Assembly (NCBI GenBank): GCA_019114945.1 | Contig: DXEN01000015.1 | Coordinates: 1-51,000 of the forward strand | Source of the DNA: Candidatus Parabacteroides intestinigallinarum | Lineage (GTDB): Bacteria; Bacteroidota; Bacteroidia; Bacteroidales; Tannerellaceae | Length of the DNA: 51,000 bases | Reading direction: 5' to 3' | Shown here: in pieces, positions 719 to 47,356 of the stretch | How the letters are laid out: each line of letters begins with the position of its first letter | Numbering within the stretch: position 1 is the first letter of the stretch | Program-made: the position numbers and the translations under genes | The notes under the pieces: model-generated | The model's input: the letters and a program-made list of their open reading frames with translations, nothing else | Told to the model about the DNA's origin: nothing | Database searches by the model: none

Positions 719-1492
719 CTATTCCTTTATCGCTTCCAGGAGCTTGTCGATGGCTCGCGTTGGAGTTGGCTCGCTCTTTAGGAGTTGGATGAACTTACTG
801 CCGATGATAGCGCCGGAAGCGTGCGATGCGGCGGCCTCGTAGGTCGCCTTGTTGCTGACACCGAAACCTACCAGATGCGGGTTTCTCAGATTCATGGCGT
901 CGATACGCTGGAAATAGGCCTGCTTTTGCTCGTCGAAACTCTTTTGTGCTCCGGTGGTGGCGGCGCTGGATACCATATAGATAAAGCCGCTGGTGTGCGT
1001 GTCGATGAGGCGGACGCGTTCCTCGGAGGTCTCCGGCGTGATGAGCATGATTATCTTCAGGTCGTATCGCTCGGCGATCGCTTTGTAGTCCGCTATGTAA
1101 TCGGCGTAAGGAAGGTCGGGAATGATCATGCCGTCCACGCCGACCTCCGCACAACTCTCGCAGAAGCGCTCGAAGCCGTACCGCATGATGGGGTTCAGAT
1201 AGCCCATTAGGATAATAGGCATCTTCACCTCTTTCCGGATGTCTTTTAATTGTTGGAACAGCAGGCGCAGGGACATGCCGTTGCGCAAGGCTTGCGTGGC
1301 GGCTTCTTGGATGACGGGGCCGTCCGCCATCGGGTCGGAGAAGGGAATGCCGACCTCTACCATGTCGATACCTTTGGCTTCCAATTCCTTTAGGATGATT
1401 GTCGTGTCGTCCAATCGCGGATAGCCCGCCGTGAAGTAAATCGATAAGATGTTTCCTTTCTTTGTTTGGAATAATGATGTAATACGGTTCAT
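719..1492 (-). CDS. trpA: Tryptophan synthase alpha subunit
   Basis: TrpA cleaves indole-3-glycerol phosphate to indole and glyceraldehyde-3-phosphate and passes indole to TrpB through the alpha2beta2 tunnel. The 257-residue protein has the family signature [15 protein letters not shown] near residues 45-60, which holds the catalytic Glu and Asp, and the phosphate-binding end (GFGVSNKAT, then GAIIGSKFI). Length is normal. It is the last gene of the trp operon, 27 bp after trpF across an AT-rich repeat, and is followed by a hairpin terminator. Distance from trpB, the first gene, is typical of the Bacteroidetes order BEGDCFA. Confidence 0.97.
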
Positions 1493-1494
1493 AC

Positions 1495-1527
1495 TATTTT
1501 AAATTTCAGATTTCAGATTTCAAATTG
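1495..1527. repeat. AT-rich intergenic repeat (ATTTCAGATTTC type)
   Basis: The trpF/trpA junction is filled by reiterated AAATTTCAGATTTCAGATTTC, running into the trpF stop codon. The same vocabulary recurs upstream of the small peptide gene (34996-35157) and between the ATPase B and D genes (47318-47356). Confidence 0.7.
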
Positions 1528-2134
1528 CCCGGATAAACGCCGATAGTTTCTCGATATCTTTCAGGCCCGGCTCGCGCTCGAAACCGCTATTGAGGTCGAT
1601 GCCGGCGAGGCGTGGGTGACGGAAACTCTGGATCGCTTCCTCGTGGCCCGGACGGATACCGCCGCTCAACAGGAACGGTGTCTCGCCCTTATATTCCGCC
1701 AGGACAGACCAATCGAAGGGACGACCCGAACCTCCGTACCCTGCGCAGCGGGTATCGAACAGGAAATAATCCACCCGGCCCTCGTAGGCTTGCGTCCGTT
1801 CCAGGTCCTCCCGCGTGGCGACGGGAAAAGCCTTGATTAAAGAATATCCCCTTTTCTGTAAGGCATAGCAATCGTCCAGCGACTCTTCTCCGTGCAGTTG
1901 CAGGTAGTCCAACCGGCAAGTCCGTGCGGTCGCCATCATTCGCTCCGGGCTGGCGTTGACGAACACGCCGACCCGTTTGGCGTGAATCGCTTCCAGATCC
2001 AGCCGCGCCAACTCGTCGGGCTCTACGTAGCGGGGCGAGCGGGGGTAGAAGATGAAGCCGAGCCACTGGACGCCTAATTGGGCGACCTCTCGGATATTCC
2101 GTTCGTCGCGCATGCCACATACTTTAATAATCAT
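1520..2134 (-). CDS. trpF: Phosphoribosylanthranilate isomerase
   Basis: TrpF performs the Amadori rearrangement of N-(5-phosphoribosyl)anthranilate to CdRP. The start is the ATG at 2134, which overlaps the trpC stop as ATGA; the frame stays open further upstream but that stretch is only antisense-frame noise within trpC. The 204-residue protein opens with the classical IKVCGMRDERNI (general-base Cys in KxCG) and ends with the phosphate-binding LSGGIRP and GIDLNSGFE motifs containing the catalytic Asp. Single-domain (beta/alpha)8 barrel of normal length, separate from TrpC as usual in Bacteroidetes. Confidence 0.96.
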   Translation of the reverse strand: MIIKVCGMRDERNIREVAQLGVQWLGFIFYPRSPRYVEPDELARLDLEAIHAKRVGVFVNASPERMMATARTCRLDYLQLHGEESLDDCYALQKRGYSLIKAFPVATREDLERTQAYEGRVDYFLFDTRCAGYGGSGRPFDWSVLAEYKGETPFLLSGGIRPGHEEAIQSFRHPRLAGIDLNSGFEREPGLKDIEKLSAFIRAI

Positions 2135-8233: not shown

Positions 8234-10108
8234 ATGAGAAAAAGACTTTTAGTGGTTGCCGGATTGTGCGCGAGTTTGATGACTTTCGCCACGGAACCGG
8301 AAGAGGCCGATAGCCTCGTCAATTTGCAAGGTGTGGTGGTTTCGGCCAATAAGATCTACGTGAACCGGAACAGCGTCCCGCTTTCCATCTCGGTCATTGA
8401 TCGGGCGGAGATCGAGGCGAGTAGTGAGTCGGCGTTGCTTCCCGTGCTTTCGGAGCGTGTGCCGGGCTTGTTCGTGACCGAGAAGGGAATCACCGGGTTT
8501 GGCGTGTCGGAAGGCGCGGCGGGAACGATTAATATCCGCGGTGTCGGACAAAGTAATAAAGTATTGGTGTTGTTTGACGGGCAACCGCAATGGGCCGGTT
8601 TGTTCGGCCACTCGTTGCCGGATACGTACGTAGCGTCGGACGTGGAGAAGGTGGAGGTAATCCGCGGACCGGGTTCTTTGCTGTATGGCTCGAACGCGAT
8701 GGGTGGCGTGATTAATATTATCACCCGGCAACATAACCAGCCGGGAAGGCGTACGCAGGCACGCGTCATGTACGGTTCCTACAATACGCAGAAGTATATG
8801 ATCAATAATGGATACAACGTCGGGAAGTTCAGCAGTTACATATCCTTGAACCACGACCGGACCGATGGGCACCGACTGGATTCGAAGTTCCACATCACGA
8901 ATGGTTTCGTGAAGTTGGGGTACGAGTTGAACGACCATTACAAGATGATGGGCGATGTCAGTCTGGCGAAGTTCAAGAACCAGAATCCCGGAGAGATTAC
9001 CGCTCCGCTTATCGACAACATCATGAATATCTTCCGCGGGACCGCCTCGTTCGCCGTGGAGAACAATTACGGGAAGGTCAGCGGCGCCTTGCGGGCTTTT
9101 TATAACTGGGGCCACCATAAGATTGACGATGGTTATAGCCCCGGGGAATCGCCGAATCCTTATCTGTTCTATTCCGACGACCACAACGCCGGCTTGCTCT
9201 TCTACCAATCCTTCCGTCTGTTGCCGGGCAATAGCTTCACGGTCGGGTTCGATTATAAGAACTGGGGCGGACACGCTTGGAACGACAGCATCAACGGCAA
9301 TCGGGCGGAATTGGTCGATAAGTCGGTCAACGAGATTGCCGGGTATGTGATTATGCAGCAGGATTTGTTCGATTTGCTGAGCCTAAACGCCGGTGTACGT
9401 TATGAGCATAATAGCGTCTTTGGAGGCGAGTGGATTCCGCAAGCGGGTTTCACCGTGCGCCCGTTCGAGGGGAATGTCATCAAAGGCTCGCTCTCCAAAG
9501 GATTCCGAAGCCCGAACATCCGCGAGATGTATATGTTCCCGCCGCAGAATCCCGATTTGCGGCCGGAGAGCATGATGAGCTACGAGGTGTCGGTCGGGCA
9601 GGACTTCCTGGATGGTGATTTGACCGCCGAACTGACCGCTTTCTTCATCGACGGCAAGGACTTGATTCAGACGACACGGGTGGATGGCCGTCCGCTGAAC
9701 GTGAACACGGGTACGTTCACGAACAAGGGCATCGAGTTCGCTACCCGGTATCAGATTCTTCGGAACCTGAGCTTGGATATGAATTATAGCTACTTGCATA
9801 CGAGCCGTCCGTTGCTCGCGGCGCCCAAACATAAATTCTTCGCCGGTGTGTCGTACGCTCCGGGACGTTTCACTTTCGATGTGAACGTACAATCCATCTT
9901 CGACCTTTATACCAATATCGATGGTGATGGGGCGAAGGAGGATTACACCGTGCTGAACGCGAAGGCGGCCTATCGTTTCGGGACGCGGGAGAAGGGCTTG
10001 AGCCTTTTCGTGAAAGGCGAGAACCTGACGGCTACGCGCTATTCCATCAACGAGGGATTCCCGATGCCGAAAGCGGTGTTTATGGGTGGAATCGACGTGA
10101 CTTTCTGA
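8234..10108 (+). CDS. TonB-dependent outer membrane receptor
   Basis: The 624-residue protein has a signal peptide (MRKRLLVVAGLCASLMTFA), a TonB-box-like LQGVVVSA near residue 30, a plug domain (about 45-165; INIRGVGQSNKVLVLFDG, VEVIRGPGSLLYGSNAMGGVINIIT) and a 22-strand type barrel ending in the aromatic C-terminus VFMGGIDVTF. It lacks the N-terminal carboxypeptidase-like domain of SusC proteins and has no SusD partner, so it resembles BtuB/CirA-type metal-chelate or cofactor receptors. Substrate cannot be read from sequence. The upstream NikR-like regulator suggests a metal or metal complex. Start ATG follows ATAATAAGGT. Confidence 0.92.
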   Translation: MRKRLLVVAGLCASLMTFATEPEEADSLVNLQGVVVSANKIYVNRNSVPLSISVIDRAEIEASSESALLPVLSERVPGLFVTEKGITGFGVSEGAAGTINIRGVGQSNKVLVLFDGQPQWAGLFGHSLPDTYVASDVEKVEVIRGPGSLLYGSNAMGGVINIITRQHNQPGRRTQARVMYGSYNTQKYMINNGYNVGKFSSYISLNHDRTDGHRLDSKFHITNGFVKLGYELNDHYKMMGDVSLAKFKNQNPGEITAPLIDNIMNIFRGTASFAVENNYGKVSGALRAFYNWGHHKIDDGYSPGESPNPYLFYSDDHNAGLLFYQSFRLLPGNSFTVGFDYKNWGGHAWNDSINGNRAELVDKSVNEIAGYVIMQQDLFDLLSLNAGVRYEHNSVFGGEWIPQAGFTVRPFEGNVIKGSLSKGFRSPNIREMYMFPPQNPDLRPESMMSYEVSVGQDFLDGDLTAELTAFFIDGKDLIQTTRVDGRPLNVNTGTFTNKGIEFATRYQILRNLSLDMNYSYLHTSRPLLAAPKHKFFAGVSYAPGRFTFDVNVQSIFDLYTNIDGDGAKEDYTVLNAKAAYRFGTREKGLSLFVKGENLTATRYSINEGFPMPKAVFMGGIDVTF

Positions 10109-33744: not shown

Positions 33745-33892
33745 TGCGTGCTTTTTTCCGCATCGTCCGCGTGTTTTTTCTTTTCATGGGGCTTTTTCAT
33801 GGTATATAGCGAAAAAAATCCTTTCTCCGCTTGTCGCGTGCGGGAAAAGTTATATCTTTACCCCCATGCGTCGCGGGCGTGCGGAGGCGTTT

Positions 33893-34093
33893 TTCCCGAT
33901 TTGGGAAAACTTCCCGCGGATCGCGTGGCCGTTTCCCGGTTTGGGAAAGCTTCCCGCGAGGCGCGTGGCCGTTTCCCGATTTGGGAAAGCTTCCCGCGAG
34001 GCGCGTGGCCGTTTCCCGATTTGGGAAAGCTTCCCGCGAGGCGCGTGGCCGTTTCCCGGCGTGGGAAAACTCCCCGCGGGGCGCGGGGCATCG
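33893..34093. repeat. 40-bp tandem repeat array upstream of the DUF6261-like gene
   Basis: Units start at 33901, 33941, 33981, 34021 and 34061, exactly 40 bp apart; the first and last are degenerate. The core GGGAAAGCTTCCC gives GGGAA/TTCCC dyad symmetry and is followed by a GC-rich GCGCGTGGCCGTTTCCC half, so TTTCCC also pairs with GGGAAA. The array ends about 40 bp before the next start codon, so it lies in the promoter or 5' UTR. No unique spacers. Confidence 0.93.
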
Positions 34094-34130: not shown

Positions 34131-34985
34131 ATGAAAGAGATTGTATTCGATTTTTCGCGGCACGCGGCCAAGAACGCGCAACACGTGGAGTTCATGCGGA
34201 GCGTGCTGGAGGTGGTGACCGAGGAGGTGGCCATGGCGCAGGGATTCGCCGCGCAGCGGGACGCGTTCGCCGCGGCGGTGGACGACGAGGTGGCTCGCTT
34301 CCAGCCGGAGAAGGCGTTCCTGGATACGCCGGAGATAACCGCCGCGGACGCTCTGCGCGACAATACGTTTTTGTTCCAGAAATCCCTATCGAAGGCCTAC
34401 GCCGACTATTGCCCGGACGCGGAGCTGCGGAAGTCGGGGCAGACGGCGTTCTTCCTCTTCAACGAGCGGGACGACGCCTACCGGCAGGATTATCTTTCCG
34501 AGACGGCTACGCTGGCCGACCTCGCCGGGAAGATGCGCGAGGAGCCTTACGCCGCCGCGCTGGCCGCCATCGGGCTGGAGGGCGCCGCCGATGAGCTGGA
34601 AGCGGCCAACGAGGCTTTCCGCGAGGTGTATTACAAGCGGGCTACGGTAGATCGCCAGCGTGTGTTCTCCGTGGGGATGAAGGAGCTGCGCGGGCGGGCG
34701 GACGACGCGTTCGACGCGCTGGCGAAGGCCATCAACGCGCTCTACCTGGTGAACGAGATGACGACGAAGGACGAGGGAAAACGCACGGCGCTGGCGGCGC
34801 TCATCGACGACGTGAATACCTACGTGGTGCGTCTGCGGAAGACGATGGGCGGCACGGCTTCCTCGTCGGGCACCGAGGGCGAGGAGGGAGGCTCCACGCC
34901 GACCGACCCGACCAATCCCGACCCCTCCGAGCCCGGCGGCGAGGAACCGGGTGGCGAGGAGACCGATTCGCCGGGGAACATTTAA
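34131..34985 (+). CDS. DUF6261-like Bacteroidetes protein with Pro/Glu-rich tail
   Basis: The 284-residue cytoplasmic-looking protein (no signal or membrane segment) is nearly all helical with Ala, Glu and Asp abundance (e.g. ADELEAANEAFREVYYKRATVDRQR) and ends with a low-complexity tail rich in Gly, Pro, Thr and Glu. It resembles the DUF6261 group of Bacteroidetes hypothetical proteins, often multicopy; function unknown. A good AAAAAAGGAAGATT ribosome site precedes the ATG. It is directly downstream of the 40-bp repeat array and upstream of the two small double-glycine peptides, but cotranscription with them is uncertain. Confidence 0.75.
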   Translation: MKEIVFDFSRHAAKNAQHVEFMRSVLEVVTEEVAMAQGFAAQRDAFAAAVDDEVARFQPEKAFLDTPEITAADALRDNTFLFQKSLSKAYADYCPDAELRKSGQTAFFLFNERDDAYRQDYLSETATLADLAGKMREEPYAAALAAIGLEGAADELEAANEAFREVYYKRATVDRQRVFSVGMKELRGRADDAFDALAKAINALYLVNEMTTKDEGKRTALAALIDDVNTYVVRLRKTMGGTASSSGTEGEEGGSTPTDPTNPDPSEPGGEEPGGEETDSPGNI

Positions 34986-34995
34986 AACGATTTAT

Positions 34996-35157
34996 GATTT
35001 ATGATTTCAAATTTAAAATTTCAAATTTCTTTCTCCTCTTGAGAGGGGGCAGGGGGTGTGTTAGTAATTGACAATTGACGATTGACAATTCAATTTGAAA
35101 TCTTAAATTTGAAATCTGAAATCAGAAATCTTAAATTTGAAATTTTAAATTTGAAAT
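34996..35157. repeat. AT-rich reiterated TTTGAAAT / AATTGACAATTG block
   Basis: The 175-bp gap before the first small peptide gene is mostly reiterated AAATTTGAAAT and AATTGACAATTGAC. Several copies create TAAATTTG, which matches the -7 element; the copy at 35132-35139 has TTTG 20 nt upstream (35108-35111), a full Bacteroidetes promoter match about 22 nt before the ATG at 35161. So the repeat may act as the promoter. Confidence 0.65.
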
Positions 35158-35160
35158 GAT

Positions 35161-35355
35161 ATGACACTACAAGAATTTATCGAGAAAATCAAGGCGGACG
35201 CGGCGCTTCGCGCGAAAGTGCATGCCGCGATTATGGAGAAAGTAATCCTGCCGATGGCTACGGCCGAGGGCGTGGAGCTCACGGACGAGGATTTGGAGGC
35301 TGTCTCCGGCGGTTCCATTAGCAAACCTTCGACCGACATCTGCAGTGTTAAATGA
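35161..35355 (+). CDS. Nif11-like double-glycine precursor peptide A
   Basis: The 64-residue peptide has a leader with the Nif11 pattern: LQEFIEKIKADAALRAKV, then MATAEGVELTDEDLEAVSGG. The GG motif at residues 50-51 is the typical cleavage site of peptidase-containing ABC exporters. The remaining core is only 13 residues: SISKPSTDICSVK, with one Cys. Leader and core architecture suggest a secreted RiPP, bacteriocin or signal peptide. No maturase or exporter gene is in the window, so processing would depend on distant genes. A paralog follows 147 bp downstream. Confidence 0.75.
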   Translation: MTLQEFIEKIKADAALRAKVHAAIMEKVILPMATAEGVELTDEDLEAVSGGSISKPSTDICSVK

Positions 35356-35441
35356 AGACGGGCGCGGCGCTTTGCGCGAAAGTACGCGCGACGTCCGCCG
35401 CGTCCTTTAAAAAGAGGGCGTGCCGGAAACAGGGGATGTGA
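35352..35441 (+). pseudogene. Remnant of a third Nif11-like leader gene
   Basis: Starting at the ATG at 35352, which overlaps the stop of peptide A, 12 codons (KTGAALCAKVRA) are closely related at DNA level to the KxDAALRAKV stretch of both neighbours (GCGGCGCTT, GCGCGAAAGT), after which similarity ends and the frame closes at 35441. It looks like a leftover of duplication or of recombination between the two genes. Translation of this 29-codon frame is not excluded. Confidence 0.55.
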
Positions 35442-35502
35442 TTCACCTGCTTCGGCAGGTCTTCCTTTCAATCTGGGTTTTGGACTTTTACATTTTAATC
35501 GT

Positions 35503-35700
35503 ATGACATTGCCGGAATTTATTGAGAAGACAAAGACAGACGCGGCGCTTCGCGCGAAAGTGCGTGCCGCGATCATGGAGAAAGTAATCCTGCCGATGGC
35601 CGCGGCCGAGGGCGTGGAGCTCACGGACGAGGAGTTGCGGGATGTCAGTGGCGGATTGGTCTCTTACCAGAAGATTCCCGAATGGACGGATCCGTATTAA
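35503..35700 (+). CDS. Nif11-like double-glycine precursor peptide B
   Basis: The 65-residue paralog of peptide A shares almost the whole leader (LPEFIEKTKTDAALRAKV, IMEKVILPMAAAEGVELTDEEL, then RDVSGG) including long stretches of identical DNA. The predicted core after Gly-Gly is LVSYQKIPEWTDPY, 14 residues, unrelated to the core of A. Conserved leader with divergent core is the expected pattern of exported double-glycine peptides. No Cys, so disulfide or thioether chemistry is excluded for this core. The cysQ gene follows 37 bp downstream. Confidence 0.75.
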   Translation: MTLPEFIEKTKTDAALRAKVRAAIMEKVILPMAAAEGVELTDEELRDVSGGLVSYQKIPEWTDPY

Positions 35701-35737
35701 ATCGGGATATTTTAATTTTGAACGTTTATATAAAAAG

Positions 35738-36544
35738 GTGAGCTACGAGAATTTCTTATACATCGCGATTCGCGCGGCGCTCGACGCCGGCAAGCGGATT
35801 ATGGACATCTACGACGACCCCGCCTCCGACTTCGGCATCGAGCGGAAGGCGGACAACTCGCCGCTGACGAAAGCCGACAAGGCGGCGCACAGCCTGATAG
35901 CCGCCGCCCTCTCGGCGACGCCCTTCCCCACGCTGAGCGAGGAAGGCCGCGATATTCCCTATGCCGAGCGCTCCGCCTGGGAGACACTCTGGATTGTCGA
36001 CCCGCTGGACGGCACGAAGGAGTTCATCAAGCGCAACGGCGAGTTTACGGTGAATATCGCCCTGGTGGACAAGGGCGTGCCCGTGTTGGGCGTGATATAC
36101 GTGCCGGTGCGGAAGGAGTTGTACTTCGCCGCCCAGTCGGTAGGCGCTTACAAGCTGGCAGGCGTGGAGTACGACCCGCAGCCCTCGATGGACGAGATGC
36201 GCCGGCGGGCGATGCGGTTGCCATTGGCGTCGGGGCATCAGGGCATCGTGGTGGTGGCGTCGCGCTCGCACCAGACGGAGGAGACGACCGCCTTTATCGA
36301 GGGTCTGCGGAAGCAGGGGAAGCCCGTCACGCTTATCAGCAGCGGCAGCAGCCTGAAGATTTGCCTCGTGGCGGAGGGCTCGGCGGATATTTACCCGCGC
36401 TTCGCCCCGACGATGGAGTGGGACACCGCCGCGGGTCACGCTATCGCCCGCGCCGCCGGGTGCGACATCTATCACGTGGACCAGAAGACGCCGCTACGCT
36501 ACAACAAGGAGGATTTGCATAATCCGTGGTTCGTGGCGCGGTAA
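35738..36544 (+). CDS. cysQ: 3'(2'),5'-bisphosphate nucleotidase
   Basis: CysQ removes the 3'-phosphate of PAP, recycling the by-product of sulfate assimilation and sulfotransfer. The protein has the inositol-monophosphatase fold with metal motifs LSEEGRDI, WIVDPLDGTKEFIKRNGEFTVNIALV (DPLDGT) and WDTAAGHAIARAAGC (WDxAAxH). I chose the GTG at 35738 (268 residues) because the conserved start YENFLYIAIRAALDAGKRI follows at once; the frame is open upstream into the peptide B region. A TAATTTTG -7-like box lies at 35713-35720. No sulfate-assimilation neighbours. Confidence 0.92.
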   Translation: MSYENFLYIAIRAALDAGKRIMDIYDDPASDFGIERKADNSPLTKADKAAHSLIAAALSATPFPTLSEEGRDIPYAERSAWETLWIVDPLDGTKEFIKRNGEFTVNIALVDKGVPVLGVIYVPVRKELYFAAQSVGAYKLAGVEYDPQPSMDEMRRRAMRLPLASGHQGIVVVASRSHQTEETTAFIEGLRKQGKPVTLISSGSSLKICLVAEGSADIYPRFAPTMEWDTAAGHAIARAAGCDIYHVDQKTPLRYNKEDLHNPWFVAR

Positions 36545-47317: not shown

Positions 47318-47356
47318 ATGAATTTAAAATTTCAGATTTAAAATTTTAAATTTAAA
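47318..47356. repeat. AT-rich TTTAAAATTTCAG-type repeat between atpB and atpD
   Basis: Reiterated AATTTAAAATTTCAGATTT occupies the 52-bp junction inside the operon. It is the same element type as at 1495-1527 and 34996-35157. Confidence 0.7.

Follow-up and report, generated by a model that had tools for sequence, protein, structure and literature searches.

Two short double-glycine precursor peptides with Nif11-like leaders in a gut Parabacteroides genome and a candidate exporter encoded elsewhere in it

The Nif11-derived peptides, designated N11P and covered by the model TIGR03798, are paired in the available text of Haft et al. (2010) with an exporter described by the models TIGR03794/03796/03797 (PMC2887384). 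LahT is described as a protease that cuts Nif11 leaders in a manner dependent on leader positions -4, -7 and -12 (PMC6363468, available text). In the gut Bacteroidales, the accessible parts of one study present the bacteroidetocins as a characterized family of double-glycine peptides (PMC6671954), and a survey of modified peptides in the same order describes further Bacteroidales clusters in which C39 exporters accompany Gly-Gly precursors (PMC10352776), with the term Nif11 absent from its main text. In the open PubMed Central papers found, covered mostly at the level of titles and the openings of abstracts, no description of the peptide pair dealt with here was seen. To our knowledge, few other peptides secreted by gut Bacteroidales are characterized.

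The pair is encoded in a stretch of 51,000 nucleotides from Candidatus Parabacteroides intestinigallinarum, referred to below as the window, which corresponds to contig C88 of a genome of 2.98 Mb in 95 contigs (G000). We regard it as probable that the two genes specify short secreted peptides, likely unmodified, for which a Nif11/NHLM system acts in trans as the exporter. The identity of the precursors, the constraint on their leaders, the open state of the exporter genes and the linkage of leader and exporter in one relative were all computed here; the features are listed in Table 1.

Leaders, cores and a leader remnant

Membership of TIGR03798 is set by the leader model and not by the core. 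Against this model (cut-off 32.3) peptide 1 scores 36.8 bits, over the threshold, and peptide 2 scores 30.5, slightly under it; the Pfam Nif11 model (cut-off 23.8) gives the same picture, with 24.8 and 22.7 bits, respectively. The possibility that the two are chance open reading frames is strongly ruled out by these profile matches together with the leader constraint described below. The leaders are identical at 43 of 51 residues and at 131 of 153 nucleotides, and 8 of the 15 codons that differ (out of 51) change the amino acid. Each leader ends in Gly-Gly, the point at which similarity between the peptides stops. The cores, of 13 residues in peptide 1 and 14 in peptide 2, resemble each other no more than shuffled sequences do, since 586 of 1000 protein shuffles and 861 of 1000 DNA shuffles align as well. 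Core 1 has four Ser, one Cys and no Gly, and core 2 has a single Ser and neither Cys nor Gly.

Table 1. Features of the peptide locus (window coordinates) and of the exporter locus (coordinates of contig C26, 8,823 bp)
Feature	Position	Strand	Description
AT-rich 14-bp tandem repeat, possible promoter	35092..35157	+	upstream of peptide 1; TAnnTTTG at 35104, 35132, 35146
Precursor peptide 1	35161..35355	+	64 aa; Nif11-like leader (residues 1-51) ending VSGG, then core SISKPSTDICSVK
Third-leader remnant	35350..35383	+	matches nt 26-59 of leader 1 at 30 of 34 positions
Pair of strong predicted RNA hairpins	35360..35464	+	inter-peptide spacer; z -3.4, 0/200 shuffles fold as well
Terminator-like stem	35445-35460	+	alternative fold within the hairpin stretch of the inter-peptide spacer
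Precursor peptide 2	35503..35700	+	65 aa; Nif11-like leader (residues 1-51) ending VSGG, then core LVSYQKIPEWTDPY
AraC-type regulator	C26 5-901		open
HlyD-type	C26 about 1050-1913		open; 120.4 bits, under the HlyD-model cut-off of 156.2
C39/ABC1	C26 1901-4045		open; NHLM_micro_ABC1 932 bits, over the cut-off of 853.3
ABC2	C26 4060-6219		open; 702 bits, under the cut-off of 709.4
Periplasmic adaptor	C26 6229-7092		open
OEP/TolC-like gene	C26 7117-8598		open

The amino acids of the leader seem to have been kept over a long time. Two further leaders of this type are found in one relative, an uncultured Parabacteroides sp. (G008, see below), where TIGR03798 gives 30.2 and 24.6 bits, both below the cut-off of 32.3, and positions -4, -7 and -12 are Val, Leu and Leu in all four leaders. 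Ratios of dN to dS could be computed for four of the six leader pairs, the two G008 leaders yielding none with leader 2. The ratio is 0.26 within the window and 0.08 within G008; between the genomes, the two G008 leaders give 0.09 and 0.04 with leader 1, values that are rough as synonymous sites are near or past saturation (dN 0.14-0.16). In an AlphaFold2 model of peptide 1 based on four sequences (mean pLDDT 73, pTM 0.44), residues 3-36 form a helix and a short helix at 42-46 precedes the Gly-Gly, and residues 54-64 have a pLDDT below 50.

Part of a third leader lies between the two genes. When aligned to leader 2, the spacer scores 45, which is reached by none of 500 dinucleotide shuffles and none of 564 other tiles of the window. 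The remnant starts inside the final codon of peptide 1 and includes the stop codon of this gene, an overlap that the sequence-only reading discussed below does not mention. Core 1 may therefore be truncated, and its current end was probably set by a rearrangement. A rival reading is that of a decaying locus, once a larger array, in which the third copy was lost by rearrangement and the cores are broken ends without function. The stop codon held by the remnant, the cores of 13-14 residues compared with 21-24 in G008, and the separation of the peptide locus from the exporter are in keeping with decay. Both leaders are nevertheless of full length with the ratio of 0.26 between them, their Gly-Gly and their contacts at -4, -7 and -12 are intact, and the frames of the C26 exporter genes are open; on balance, we think decay unlikely.

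A sequence-only reading of this DNA had recognized the two double-glycine precursors with Nif11-like leaders, the near identity of these leaders beside unrelated cores, and the leader remnant, all of which are borne out by the profile matches and shuffle tests above. It had also invoked diversifying (positive) selection on the cores, which goes beyond the evidence, as this covers leader constraint and core dissimilarity only.

The surrounding DNA

The spacer between the peptide genes is predicted to be strongly structured. Terminator-like sites number 2 compared with 1.5 expected from shuffles, and so provide no evidence taken alone. A known RNA element was rejected for this region, as Rfam returns no match at gathering score across 34900-35800. 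A dispersed repeat was likewise rejected as the identity of the spacer, since the only other matches to it, in the window and the five loci compared, are the two leaders.

Upstream of peptide 1, the motif TAnnTTTG, which we take to be a promoter consensus, occurs within a repeat with further copies in the window, and these sites are thus not counted as promoter evidence. The AT-rich intergenic repeat at 34986-35160 is found again at 1503-1527 and 47321-47355 of the window, and another part of this stretch has a repeat match at a further locus of the same genome (L017).

The genes that adjoin the peptide pair encode a DUF6261 protein and a member of the inositol-phosphatase family. A tandem array at 33892-34089, with a 40-bp unit in 4.9 copies and 91% matches, lies directly upstream of the DUF6261 gene. 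This gene is close to the peptides both in the window (34131-34985) and in G008 (L019 11583-12482), in a relative orientation that differs. Genes for DUF6261 proteins may be widespread among these bacteria, so that their presence near the peptides in both genomes may be a coincidence. The downstream gene, which is presumably CysQ-like, is matched in 37 of 38 genomes of the genus. Among its places in relatives, loci were obtained for 29 of the 36 outside the own genome; 27 of these 29 have an upstream open reading frame of more than 90 residues, some of them probably shadow frames, and the upstream neighbors vary, with some common to relatives.

The exporter, its relatives and the question of modification

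Of the C39 peptidase matches in the genome, a single one is strong (119.5 bits), located on contig C26, and a weak one below cut-off (11.8 bits) lies on C6; there is none on the window's own contig. The sequence-only reading had placed the export machinery away from the peptides and asked for a C39-type ABC exporter elsewhere in the genome, and the NHLM-type C39 exporter on C26 agrees with both. The NHLM exporter family is represented by TIGR03794/03796/03797. The ABC2 and HlyD-type proteins score under the cut-offs of their models; for each of the two, no other NCBIfam model scores better, and the order of the genes is that expected for an NHLM exporter. Peptides and exporter thus reside on separate contigs (C88 and C26). 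The tetranucleotide composition of C26 correlates with that of the window at r 0.918 (tiles of the window: minimum 0.901, mean 0.939), a resemblance that argues against mis-binning.

A search of genome contigs with the leader found one relative in which the two components are linked, CALUZV010000028.1 of the uncultured Parabacteroides sp. isolate BRZ_ER__bin5 (G008). It encodes two peptides that share this leader and have different cores, of 21 and 24 residues, 15 bp apart, and the pair lies 136 bp upstream, on the same strand, of orthologous HlyD, ABC1, ABC2 and adaptor genes. The ABC1 proteins of the two genomes share 87% identity. In G008, an in-frame TGA occurs in the HlyD-type gene (L019 about 9271-9273) at a position where the own protein has tryptophan. 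It stems from a mutation, in which case the G008 exporter may be impaired, or from an error of assembly. The G+C content is 57% in the window and 45% in the 20-kb stretch of G008.

The occurrence of unequal pairs in both genomes, so closely spaced in G008, invites the view that the peptides are the two parts of a class IIb-like bacteriocin that act together, a sub-case of export in trans. A GxxxG-like motif is given as a feature of such two-peptide bacteriocins in the available text of PMC13289728, but inspection of the window cores shows no GxxxG, AxxxA or SxxxS in either. Lengths of 13-14 residues are moreover very short, and the adjacent DUF6261 and inositol-phosphatase-family genes offer no evident immunity genes. 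We consider a two-component bacteriocin very unlikely.

The C39 domain on C26 closely resembles that of LahT. It shares 91 of 134 residues with LahT150 (6mpz; E 1e-58), and Gln21, Cys27, His101 and Asp117 are conserved. In C39 alignments, LahT150 (92/131) is nearer to it than 14 of the 15 other exporters compared; the sole exception is the exporter of G008 (126/135), and the next after LahT150 reaches 82/131. This likeness, the conserved catalytic residues and the contacts kept in the leaders make it likely that the C26 exporter cuts after the Gly-Gly.

Export in trans, the reading that we favor, would then proceed as follows. The 51-residue leader would act as a mostly helical export tag, and the C39 domain of the NHLM-type ABC exporter would recognize the short helix that precedes the double glycine via Val-4, Leu-7 and Leu-12. 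Cleavage after Gly-Gly by this domain would release the cores of 13 and 14 residues, probably unmodified, and two ABC proteins, HlyD-type adaptors and a TolC-like channel would carry them outside. There they might serve as a signal or as a narrow antibacterial. Counting against this reading are the lack of linkage between peptides and exporter, the possible truncation of core 1, cores shorter than those of G008 and the rarity of the leader. Further points against it are the absence of the leader from three of five exporter genomes, the TGA in the HlyD gene of G008 and the scores of ABC2 and HlyD under their cut-offs.

The cores could alternatively be those of true RiPP precursors, modified before export by an enzyme encoded elsewhere. 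Nif11 leaders often accompany LanM-like or cyclodehydratase enzymes, which are sometimes unlinked, according to the accessible text of PMC2887384, and the Ser, Thr, Trp, Lys and Asp/Glu residues of the cores are modifiable in principle. A search of the own genome for two enzyme models, the LanM dehydratase domain (PF13575) and YcaO (PF02624), gave no match to either; in 14 control genomes the LanM model exceeded its cut-off in none and YcaO in five, so the LanM negative comes without a strong positive control. The genes scanned beside the exporters of G000 and G008 likewise include no modifying enzyme, and Cys, present once in core 1, is missing from core 2. These results speak against modification, which we judge to be highly improbable, and they leave the RiPP status that had been among the suggestions for this locus unsupported within the two enzyme families searched.

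The leader is rare. Strong matches to the leader model are confined to G000 and G008 among 38 genomes of the genus, where 12 of the 14 matching genomes reached just E 0.16-0.93, and to the own genome among 393 genomes of the order. Conservation in relatives is therefore partial: the leader recurs in G008, but in just one of the 37 other genus genomes. A search of 98 genomes gave nine at E <= 0.1, seven of them other than G000 and G008. The weak matches in G033, G086 and G094 were rejected, with a Nif11-like frame in three of five loci and no Gly-Gly; G023, G042, G043 and G050 are not among these loci. No leader match was found in plasmids (tblastn, E <= 0.1), and none of 163 stretches in viral contigs that fit the leader pattern was confirmed. 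A mobile origin of the peptides was rejected on the grounds that the leader is absent from the plasmids and viral contigs searched.

The exporter is also restricted in its distribution. When the best eight candidates per genome are scored, ABC1 exceeds its cut-off in five of 123 family genomes, of which the 38 genus genomes are taken as a subset, and all five belong to one genus. With the best two candidates per genome, it does so in four of 393 genomes of the order, one of which is the own, a fifth falling below cut-off, and the own ABC1 as query finds eight of 395 class genomes including its own at E <= 1e-180, the other seven being 41-44% identical. In plasmids, 2,442 records match ABC1, all at less than 60% identity and at up to 43.9% among the matches listed.

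The Nif11-like leader of peptides 1 and 2 is missing from G027, G030 and G034, three of the five exporter genomes in the family. These three encode other Gly-Gly peptides, which are Cys-rich and mostly on contigs away from the exporter, with one in G027 about 3.5 kb before it. At E < 1e-5 such peptides are found in exactly these three of the 38 genus genomes, eight of the 11 matching genomes being at E 0.028 or worse only. A C39-VKOR fusion, Pfam-tested in both cases, adjoins the NHLM exporter in G027 (L026 7786-9219) and G030 (L028 7956-9389), and G034 has a protein with the same start beside its exporter. The fusions and dispersed Cys-rich peptides of G027 and G030 possibly represent a disulfide-forming export system. 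Contig C7 of G027 (L077 1495-1927) also encodes a neighboring pair of Gly-Gly peptides whose cores show a zinc-finger-like CxxC...HxxxxH pattern, matched weakly at E 0.44 and 0.81.

With the two queries, every one of the five exporter genomes in the genus has some Gly-Gly peptide, and none of the 33 others has one at E < 1e-5. G027, G030 and G034 are close relatives (ABC1 of G027 and G030 is 95% identical) and the source of one query, so the five co-occurrences are not independent. It is tentatively possible, if on the doubtful side, that gut Bacteroidales have a short-peptide signaling or competition system with a single NHLM exporter for unlinked peptides of 13-24 residues, all unmodified. 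In it, the Nif11 leader would be purely an export tag, retained as cores are swapped; related species of the genus would rely on this type of exporter for peptides rich in disulfides, with VKOR-linked oxidation.

Comparison with described systems

The precursor pair, its candidate exporter in trans and the LahT-like protease domain make a direct test of cleavage and core activity feasible. They also illustrate that mining of exporter neighborhoods alone can miss such peptides.

Within the genus, the Gly-Gly peptides with Cys-rich cores in G027, G030 and G034 resemble the window pair in having an NHLM exporter in the genome and in lying mostly away from it. They differ in these cores, in their leaders of 20-25 residues and in the C39-VKOR fusion beside the exporter. 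The bacteroidetocins, in the accessible parts of PMC6671954, have leaders of 15-16 residues and at least two Cys, compared with a leader of 51 residues and one and zero Cys in the window. Their mature peptides are of 42 residues (in the two studied), and a thiol oxidoreductase gene mostly accompanies them; neither feature is seen in the window system.

Much nearer is LahA1-9/LahT of Lachnospiraceae C6A11 which, in the available text of PMC6363468, shares with the present system Nif11-type leaders, diverse cores, the catalytic residues and the leader contacts. That system belongs to another phylum and has nine precursors in one cluster, whereas here there are two, unlinked to the exporter.

The closest counterpart is the N11P system, which has in common with the window the leader family, the Gly-Gly site, hypervariable cores, paralogous copies and the three-gene exporter family, and whose precursors may also sit apart from the other machinery (PMC2887384, available text). 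With such leaders and exporters already described there, the earlier suggestion of an undescribed small-peptide system was overstated. In comparison with N11P as presented in these parts of the paper, the window cores are of 13-14 residues and are not rich in Cys, Gly or Ser, LanM and YcaO matches are missing, and the host is a gut member of the Bacteroidales. The peptide pair is a real case of the Nif11-leader/NHLM-exporter kind outlined in 2010 (PMC2887384, available text), one that occurs rarely across the Bacteroidales samples searched and has unusually short cores.
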